Part shown: piece after piece, positions 21,451 to 22,982 of the stretch | How positions within the stretch are numbered: the stretch's first letter is position 1 | How the letters are laid out: the number at the start of each line of letters is the position of its first letter | Source: Cellulomonas gilvus ATCC 13127 | GTDB taxonomy: Bacteria > Actinomycetota > Actinomycetes > Actinomycetales > Cellulomonadaceae | Assembly (NCBI RefSeq): GCF_000218545.1 | Contig: NC_015671.1 | Location: 62,001 to 126,000, forward strand | Reading direction: 5' to 3' | DNA: 64,000 bases | Notes under the pieces: model-generated | What the model was told of the DNA's origin: nothing | Database searches by the model: none | The model's input: only the letters and a program-made list of their open reading frames with translations | Program-made: the position numbers and the translations under genes

Positions 21451-21527
21451 GCCCCGGATATTCGCTGGGCGGCCCCCCGGCCCCGGCGTAGCGTCGTCGG
21501 CACACACGGAAGGAGGTGGTCCGAGAG

Positions 21528-21566
21528 ATGAAGCTCTACCGGACGCGAGAGGTGACTGCCCGCTAG
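21528..21566 (+). CDS. 12-codon leader ORF (MKLYRTREVTAR) behind an extended Shine-Dalgarno
   Basis: ATG...TAG encodes MKLYRTREVTAR. AAGGAGGTGGTCC at 21510-21522 can pair with 13 consecutive bases of the 16S rRNA 3' end, twelve Watson-Crick plus one G-U, far more than any other gene in the window. That, with the paired structure around it, is the case for translation. The peptide lacks a run of one amino acid, so classical amino-acid attenuation is unlikely. Not recognised. Confidence 0.5.
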   Translation: MKLYRTREVTAR

Positions 21567-21655
21567 TCGCCCGAGGAACTCGGACGGACTGCACCCGCCG
21601 CGCCTCACCGGTCAGGACACCGGCGGGGCGGTGAGCGGACCACCGGCAGTCACCG

Positions 21656-21722
21656 CAGCCCGTGGGAGCCGCGACCTCGTCCCTCGCGGCGGGGCCCCGT
21701 CAGGGGCCCGGCCCACGGGCTG
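21656..21722 (+). ncRNA. Predicted three-way-junction RNA element in the desaturase leader
   Basis: A perfect 11-bp closing stem (CAGCCCGTGGG 21656-21666 with CCCACGGGCTG 21712-21722) encloses two hairpins: GCCGCGA/TCGCGGC (21668-21690) and GGGCCCC/GGGGCCC (21692-21709, loop GTCA). The nesting of three perfect stems is unlikely to be chance even at this G+C content. Could be a regulator of the desaturase or part of a separate small RNA. Confidence 0.45.
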
Positions 21723-21800
21723 TCCCGCGCCCGCGGCAGATCCGCACAGTCCGTTCACCGGACCGTCCGGCGCGATCCGGACACCCCGGGTTACTGTGGC

Positions 21801-22982
21801 ATGGCGATAGGCACACGCCTTTGGCAACGACGCCCGCCGCGCGGGCCACACACCCGGCAGGTGCTCATCGCCACTTCTACCCCCCTCCCCGCGACCGCGC
21901 TGCGTGACGGATTCCGCCCGACGGTCGCCCGGGACACCTCGTTCCCGCACCTGACGCATGCGTACACGCAGGTCGCGCAGATGGTCCGCGACCGTGGCCT
22001 GCTGCGCCGCGCGTACGCGTTCTACGGCGGCGTGGGTGCCGCGCTCGTCGTCGGCTTCGCCGCCGCGCTCGCCGGCTTCCTGCTGCTGGGCGACAGCTGG
22101 TTCCAGCTCCTCATCGCCGCGGGGCTCGGCATCCTGTTCACGCAGACGGCGTTCGTCACGCACGAGGCCGCGCACAAGCAGGTCCTGGCCGGCGGCCCCG
22201 CCAACGACCGCCTGGCCCAGATCCTCGCGTGCGGCGTGGTCGGCGTGAGCTCGTCGTGGTGGAACACCAAGCACAACCGTCACCACGCGAACCCCAACCG
22301 CGTCGGCAAGGACCCGGACATCGAGGTCGACACGATCTCGTTCATCGAGGAGGACGCCGCCAAGGCGTCCGGCCTGCTCGGCTTCATCACGCGTCGGCAG
22401 GGCTGGCTGTTCTTCCCGCTGCTGACGCTCGAGGGCCTGAACCTGCACCGCCTGGGCCTGCAGCACCTGCTGGCGCGCGGCGAGGTCAAGGGCCGCGCGA
22501 CCGAGCTCAGCCTGATCGCCGTGCGGTTCGTGCTGTTCTGGGCGCCGGTGTTCTGGCTGCTGCCGCTCGGCATGGCCTTCGCGTTCCTGGGCGTGCAGCT
22601 CGCGGTGTTCGGTGTCTACATGGGGGCGTCGTTCGCGCCCAACCACAAGGGCATGCCCATCGTCGCGCGGGACGCCAAGCTGGACTTCTTCACCAAGCAG
22701 GTGCGCACCTCCCGCAACGTCGCGGGTGGCTGGTGGGCCACGTGGCTCATGGGGGGCCTGAACTACCAGGTGGAGCACCACCTGTTCCCGAGCATGCCGC
22801 GGCCGCACCTGGCCCAGGCGCGCCGGCTGGTGCGCGAGCACTGCCGCGTGCTCGACGTGCCGTACACCGAGACGAGCCTGTTCCGCTCGTACGCGATCGT
22901 CGTGCGGTACCTCAACGAGGTCGGCCTCGCGGCACGTGACCCGTTCGAGTGCCACGTGGTCGCGCGCTTCCGCAAGGTCTGA
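21801..22982 (+). CDS. Membrane fatty acid desaturase (acyl-lipid/acyl-CoA type)
   Basis: 393 residues from the ATG used here. All three His boxes of the di-iron desaturases are present: HEAAHKQ (121-125), HNRHHANP (158-162) and QVEHHLFPSMPRPHL (323-327). Two pairs of membrane helices flank the middle box. The enzyme introduces a double bond into acyl chains at the membrane, the usual way to restore fluidity in the cold. A GTG at 21861 gives a more family-like N terminus, since the first 20 residues from 21801 are an Arg/Pro-rich tail; start uncertain. The structured leader lies directly upstream, and the cold-shock gene is convergent next door. Confidence 0.92.
   Translation: MAIGTRLWQRRPPRGPHTRQVLIATSTPLPATALRDGFRPTVARDTSFPHLTHAYTQVAQMVRDRGLLRRAYAFYGGVGAALVVGFAAALAGFLLLGDSWFQLLIAAGLGILFTQTAFVTHEAAHKQVLAGGPANDRLAQILACGVVGVSSSWWNTKHNRHHANPNRVGKDPDIEVDTISFIEEDAAKASGLLGFITRRQGWLFFPLLTLEGLNLHRLGLQHLLARGEVKGRATELSLIAVRFVLFWAPVFWLLPLGMAFAFLGVQLAVFGVYMGASFAPNHKGMPIVARDAKLDFFTKQVRTSRNVAGGWWATWLMGGLNYQVEHHLFPSMPRPHLAQARRLVREHCRVLDVPYTETSLFRSYAIVVRYLNEVGLAARDPFECHVVARFRKV

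Follow-up and report, generated by a model that had tools for sequence, protein, structure and literature searches.

An RNA gene of the Ms_IGR-5 family (Rfam RF02471) was identified with near certainty in the 64,000-nucleotide stretch of the Cellulomonas gilvus ATCC 13127 genome analysed here (the window). Three features are new for Ms_IGR-5: an open reading frame (ORF) whose start and stop are preserved without a conserved peptide, a Shine-Dalgarno (SD) sequence of 15-16 nt, and helices built on a core strand inside the ORF. The best explanation, which we regard as reasonably probable, is an autonomous RNA of about 220 nt that is either translated and open or folded, the two states being mutually exclusive, and that is unrelated to the fatty acid desaturase gene located downstream. 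The features discussed below are as follows.

21464-21494, + strand: candidate promoter of the element, with a −35 region (CTGG; TTG in relatives) and the −10 box TAGCGT at 21489-21494; recurs in relatives
21501-21735, + strand: whole RNA gene, Ms_IGR-5 family; Rfam match at 21502-21663, extended here through the terminator
21508-21522, + strand: extended SD, complementary to the 3′ end of 16S rRNA; from the sequence and family comparison
21519-21544, + strand: start-codon hairpin H1, GTCCGAGAG with CTCT..CGGAC, loop ATGAAG; predicted probability about 0.9-0.99
21528-21566, + strand: conserved short ORF of 12 codons, MKLYRTREVTAR and stop; length kept across the class, with in-frame length changes further out
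21541-21545, + strand: ORF strand of the pseudoknot PK, GGACG, codons 5-6; 96% of cells paired, compensatory changes
21546-21549, + strand: 3′ strand of P1, codon 7 plus one base, CGAG in the window; pairs with the 5′ end in relatives
21551-21560, + strand: 5′ strand of P2, GGTGACTGCC, codons 8-11; covariation, 97.3% paired, predicted in the window
21571-21583, + strand: CCGAG-GAA-CTCGG hairpin inside the P2 loop; similar within much of the genus, without conservation beyond it
21633-21644, + strand: site of the conserved family motif GCGAAUYCC, which in the window has diverged to GAGCGGACCACC
21645-21654, + strand: 3′ strand of P2, GGCAGTCACC; covariation, predicted in the window
21656-21666/21712-21722, + strand: P3, closing a terminator-like three-way domain; seven pairs at E 0.00
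21668-21674/21684-21690, + strand: P4, inner hairpin of the 21656-21722 domain; predicted structure and covariation
21678-21682, + strand: P4 hairpin loop CGTCC, PK partner of 21541-21545; compensatory changes
21692-21698/21703-21709, + strand: P5, inner hairpin of the 21656-21722 domain; predicted structure
21792-21797, + strand: separate −10 box of the desaturase, TACTGT, outside the RNA; TAnnnT and downstream DNA conserved before orthologues (L168, L169, L172)
21801-22982, + strand: fatty acid desaturase ORF (PF00487), a neighbour only; domain match

Family identity and distribution

A cmscan search of Rfam aligned positions 21502-21663 with the full length (1-184) of RF02471 at 49.6 bits, the gathering score being 45. 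The next-best match to the family model in the same genome reached 14.5 bits (E 0.78), which leaves a single copy. Our own 5′ model R1 found the window copy at E 1.8e-17, the copy itself being among the sequences of the model. As a copy of RF02471 the element belongs to a described class, where the earlier note had known of none with this layout. The family, first described in M. smegmatis, is annotated in Rfam as 'sRNA', and no function was assigned to Ms_IGR-5 in the literature found. Ms_IGR-5 transcripts are known from Streptomyces lividans and S. avermitilis (PMC8079986, PMC8780764), and the homologue in M. smegmatis is IGR-5/ncMSMEG15794c (PMC10454040). Ribosome-protected reads were reported on the homologues of M. 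abscessus and M. smegmatis, with the reservation of the authors themselves that the footprints may stem from protection by other RNPs (PMC4974804). Literature searches directed at the peptide, at aliases of Ms_IGR-5 and at any account of a dual function added nothing.

The element was present in 35 of 36 genomes of its own genus (the desaturase in 40 of 41), in 122 of 297 genomes of the order sample and in 193 of 297 genomes of the class sample, here in one copy each except for one double occurrence. In the phylum sample the Rfam model detected it in 57 of 296 genomes at E 0.001, with the best scores in mycobacteria, whereas our own model, covering 72 positions of the 5′ part, detected it in 139 of 296 at E 0.01, and 112 of these were at E 1e-5 or better. 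The Rfam model thus misses about half of the copies in the phylum. None of the called genes overlapped the element in 194 loci, i.e. it is intergenic.

A reading frame behind an extended Shine-Dalgarno sequence

The sequence AAGGAGGTGGTCC is located exactly at 21510-21522, as first noticed, and since the genome's own 16S genes end in GGCTGGATCACCTCCTTTCT, all 13 of its bases pair with the 16S rRNA 3′ end (one of them as G.U). The pairing grows to 15 nt if further G.U pairs are counted. The exact string occurs once in the 3.5-Mb genome; a pattern search allowing G.U gave 10 genomic 13-nt matches, at least two of which are antisense of 16S genes. The SD of the relatives pairs with 15-16 nt of 16S rRNA, and 15 or more contiguous pairs (G.U allowed) were found in 179 of 180 family members. 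The SD comes close to the longest complement that the 16S tail allows.

The 12-codon ORF proposed earlier, from ATG at 21528 to TAG ending at 21566 and encoding MKLYRTREVTAR, was confirmed. Exactly 12 codons were found in 187 of 188 class members, in which the start codon was ATG (n = 90), GTG (n = 56), TTG (n = 40), ATT (n = 1) or AGT (n = 1). Codons 8-9 (GAG GTG) were invariant at each base in 158 of 158 class members, a figure that is slightly circular because GAGGTG also served as the search anchor. All 20 phylum-distant loci had a stop at the same codon after GAG; their starts were TTG, CTG, ATG, GTG, ATT or ATC, and L234 offered only ACG. ORF lengths of 10, 14, 15, 18 and 19 codons were found in still more distant loci, among which the L389-L392 group and L402 had the ORF in another frame relative to GAGGTG, although it still ended at the equivalent place. 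Changes in the length from start to stop stayed in frame, unlike the spacer between SD and start, which varied freely from 8 to 10 nt. Codons 2-4 are AT-rich, with a GC content of 33% compared to 73% for the loci. In L393-L399, the most distant groups, AUA or late starts were the only options, which leaves the ORF doubtful there.

These observations could be read as a gene for a functional micropeptide with a TREV core, in which RNA structure is secondary. Within the class T6 was found in 154 of 158 sequences and E8 and V9 in all 158, and the mycobacterial homologues carry ribosome footprints (PMC4974804). However, residues 2-4 vary freely, E-V is fixed at synonymous sites too (always GAG GTG), and codon 7 changes track the pairing partner of that codon, the 5′ end of the RNA. 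Distant clades encode an unrelated peptide or use another frame (MKPGTQRATVEVMSR, LQQDCGGGSS). A conserved peptide was rejected because the codon choices follow the pairing and distant clades change frame, and we find the micropeptide reading improbable. From these comparisons we conclude that selection has probably acted on being translated and not on the peptide. The ORF is probably translated in vivo, which is supported by the footprints on the mycobacterial homologues (PMC4974804).

The reading frame as core strand of the fold

The region folded better than 199 of 200 shuffled sequences (z −3.65). Covariation was tested on 160 sequences against a null of alignments simulated on the tree, and pairs were counted in a separate MAFFT alignment of 40 loci with 500 shuffles. 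Pairs in P1, P2, P3 and P4 were obtained at E 0.00-0.23 under the tree-simulated null. In the 40 loci, standard pairs made up 95.5% of P1, 96.0% of PK and 97.3% of P2, and none of the 500 shuffles reached the covariation score. Together, PK, P1 and P2 pair ORF nucleotides 14-22 and 24-33, nearly all of its second half, and compensatory changes support each of the three across the phylum. ORF codons 5-11 are, as judged from this comparative evidence, the central strand of three long-range helices.

The dominant long helix in the window is P2 (GGTGACTGCC with GGCAGTCACC, predicted probability 0.98-1.0), which was absent from the earlier note. Its covarying pairs were U30-B15 (E 0.00), U33-B12 (E 0.017), U29-B16 (E 0.15) and U32-B13 (E 0.22). 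When the footprint of a ribosome at the stop codon was blocked in the prediction for the window copy, P2 was abolished and the SD paired downstream. An ungapped search for the P2 partner failed in several distant lineages, where the 3′ strand by eye seems to be bulged. Immediately ahead of the P2 3′ strand, the GCGAAUYCC motif is conserved across the phylum, its window copy having diverged. In L228 (genome G575) and L078-L083 the region from the stop to the P2 3′ strand is deleted, and P2 is reduced to a simple hairpin whose loop contains the stop codon.

P1 was paired in 94% of cases in the relatives compared to 74.5% in shuffled sequences. With the distant loci included its covariation was 0.448 against 0.111 shuffled, and two of its pairs were at E 0.017 in the 160 sequences; CACG/CGUG, CACA/UGUG, CCAG/CUGG and CCGA/UCGG are among its variants. 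The window copy has no perfect 4-bp P1 partner, P1 being imperfect there with the 5′ end CACACACGG. PK is nearly invariant in the class (GGAC/GUCC), the P4 loop being GTCC in 158 of 160 class members and otherwise ATCC or GTTC. The exceptions compensate: GGAU/AUCC in L130 and CGAC/GUCG in L232, L243 and L246. Further out, PK was recognised by eye as GUGACC/GGUCAC in L386, L400 and L401, as GUGACG/CGUCAC in L385 and as GCGACC/GGUCGC in L384.

Two local helices were also considered. The H1 core TCC:GGA forms in 40 of 40 aligned sequences with zero double changes. As a conserved helix H1 was rejected, given that its core always pairs in the class, never covaries and is broken in the CGAC clades, and the conservation of GGAC is consequently better explained by PK. 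H2 (GGTGACT/AGTCGCC) formed with six or more pairs in 105 of 160 sequences compared to 92.5 after shuffling and had one covarying pair; it was rejected as the main switch partner of P2, a role for which it retains a weak possibility.

The earlier note had described two mutually exclusive folds, a CCGAG (21571-21575)/CTCGG (21579-21583) stem and a helix of GTCCGAG (21519-21525) with CTCGGAC (21579-21585). The stem is present as a hairpin in the predicted fold. The helix had a predicted probability of 0.0, and all seven of its pairs are possible in only 5 of 17 loci of the genus. The start-codon hairpin actually predicted is H1, which lies inside the ORF. Conservation in relatives, on which that note had made its proposal depend, was found for the ORF, the SD and the long-range pairings, all of which are kept across the phylum.

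An autonomous gene next to a desaturase

Upstream of the SD, the relatives share an A-rich stretch, TTG and a TAnnnT box at fixed distance, and transcription of the element probably starts at about 21500-21502. The element thus appears to be an autonomous gene, both promoter and terminator being its own. By a simple codon-usage gene caller the next downstream gene was co-directional with the element in 94 loci and lay on the opposite strand in 91, i.e. its orientation is random, and no widely common neighbour family or downstream gene was found among the loci of the relatives. In the window a methionine aminopeptidase gene (PF00557, 20213-21046) adjoins the element divergently. In several relatives within the genus map lies directly downstream of the element, possibly just as a stable synteny.

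The first interpretation of the region was a leader RNA by which translation of the tiny ORF governs the desaturase downstream. This gene is indeed the next same-strand gene in the window, about 80 nt past the terminator stem, and a comparable adjacency was found in one of the four closest relatives (G575). In the other three (G588, G589 and G596), however, about 1.1-1.3 kb with an opposite-strand frame separates the element from the desaturase, and the other family members searched have no desaturase within 1.5 kb. The element therefore does not keep a position upstream of desaturase orthologues. Moreover, the terminator is among the best-supported parts of the RNA, the downstream orientation is random (94 versus 91), and the desaturase has an apparent promoter of its own followed by a conserved 5′ stretch. 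On synteny, orientation and the separate promoter the leader reading was rejected, and we hardly give it any credence. Because of the conserved TAnnnT before the desaturase, a transcription start downstream of 21600, which the leader reading had excluded, is probable for that gene, but not for the RNA. The suggested control of cold response or membrane fluidity found no support either: the cold-shock study in M. smegmatis detected IGR-5, which is absent from the cold-induced sRNAs in its text (PMC10454040).

Some observations concern the desaturase itself. The ORF called from 21801 probably starts later (21792-21860). The sequence GGCGAT.GGCAC.CGCC..TGGCAACG after TACTGT is conserved as DNA before orthologues and suggests a short conserved 5′ UTR of the desaturase's own. 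Other desaturases of the genus (upstream regions L173, L174, L178, L180 and L185) have a common leader with a GGCTGGGAAGTCGAC-like sequence, for which no Rfam family was found at gathering score.

Proposed mechanism and alternatives

The core strand (codons 5-11) pairs with the P4 hairpin loop (PK), with the 5′ end (P1) and with the GGCAGUCACC strand (P2). In this folded state the strong SD and the start codon are located in a loop, where 30S subunits would have access to them. An initiating ribosome would have to unzip PK, P1 and P2, and a ribosome at the fixed stop codon, located a few nucleotides beyond the P2 strand, would cover that strand and keep P2 open. Since codons 5-11 are the strand shared by the ORF and the helices, translation and folding should be exclusive; with initiation dismantling the core and the stop-codon ribosome holding P2 open, the RNA would be either translated or folded. 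H2 (against P2) and H1 (against PK) would as local competitors sharpen the switch. Its state may be set by ribosome availability: as the SD is a near-maximal complement of 16S rRNA, the availability of 30S subunits or ribosomes would be the likeliest input. The folded or the open state may then act in trans on a putative partner, and the element would be a small RNA gated by ribosomes. The initial idea of a switch driven by a tiny ORF is hence retained as far as the ORF, the extraordinary SD and folds competing with translation are concerned, and given up for the specific pair of exclusive stems. Only tentatively do we extend this to Ms_IGR-5 as the prototype of a class of ribosome-gated RNAs that spans the phylum, pseudoknotted, with an obligatory and peptide-indifferent ORF and an SD complementary to the 16S 3′ end over its full length, which might report free initiation capacity through a trans-active switch between translated and folded states.

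The element may instead be an ordinary trans-acting sRNA, in which the P4 loop (CUCGUCC) pairs with target mRNAs and the ORF has no role beyond the stability or the turnover of the RNA. An autonomous gene with a terminator and an almost invariant GUCC in the P4 loop are what such an sRNA would have, and the study from which the IGR sRNAs of M. smegmatis originate is by its title based on heterologous Hfq (reference 13 of PMC10454040). The conservation of the loop is, however, already explained by PK with the ORF, compensatory changes included, and we consider this alternative unlikely. An attenuator, in which ORF translation would determine whether transcription terminates at P3 or continues into whatever lies downstream, would account for the attenuator-like arrangement of ORF, competing helices and terminator, and map, the methionine aminopeptidase gene, is often found directly after the element in this genus. 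Yet there is no shared downstream gene, its strand being distributed 94 to 91, and the ORF is without a run of regulatory codons, codons 2-4 being variable, which makes attenuation slightly more improbable still than the micropeptide. The switch between a translated and a folded state is thus the reading that we prefer.

The RNA is found once per genome in a large share of the Actinomycetota, mycobacteria and Streptomyces included, and has so far been catalogued as an unexplained sRNA. Its conserved core is at once a reading frame, preceded by a 15-16-nt complement to 16S rRNA, and the peptide is seemingly irrelevant, so that one can test on this RNA whether translation itself serves as a regulatory input. 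The published consensus structure of Ms_IGR-5 is corrected here. A warning also follows, in that such RNAs may be mistaken for leaders of whichever gene comes next.

Comparison with known systems

The likeness to Ms_IGR-5 of Rfam is one of homology: the element scores above the gathering score, is intergenic and present in one copy per genome, and relatives transcribe it. The Rfam consensus, as displayed with the window match, differs in consisting of two simple hairpins, without the ORF, P1, P2 and the pseudoknot. Ms1 and 6C RNA are likewise stand-alone structured RNAs widespread in Actinobacteria, but they are different families by name and differ from Ms_IGR-5 in structure. Neither Ms1 nor 6C had an Rfam match in the window, where two other RNAs were found, a glycine riboswitch (RF00504, 36057-36144, + strand, 71.7 bits) and a SAM riboswitch (RF00162, 46853-46949, − strand, 52.5 bits). 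6C RNA, too, shows ribosome-protected reads (PMC4974804). With the attenuators and leader peptides trpL and leuL of Actinobacteria the element shares a short ORF, competing helices and a terminator, whereas it is autonomous and lacks a conserved downstream operon and regulatory codons. The dual-function sRNAs SgrS, RNAIII and Spot 42 are also RNAs of regulatory type that bear a short ORF with an SD. Their ORF is largely separate from the regulatory region; in Ms_IGR-5, by contrast, the ORF provides the core strand of the fold, and its peptide is not conserved.
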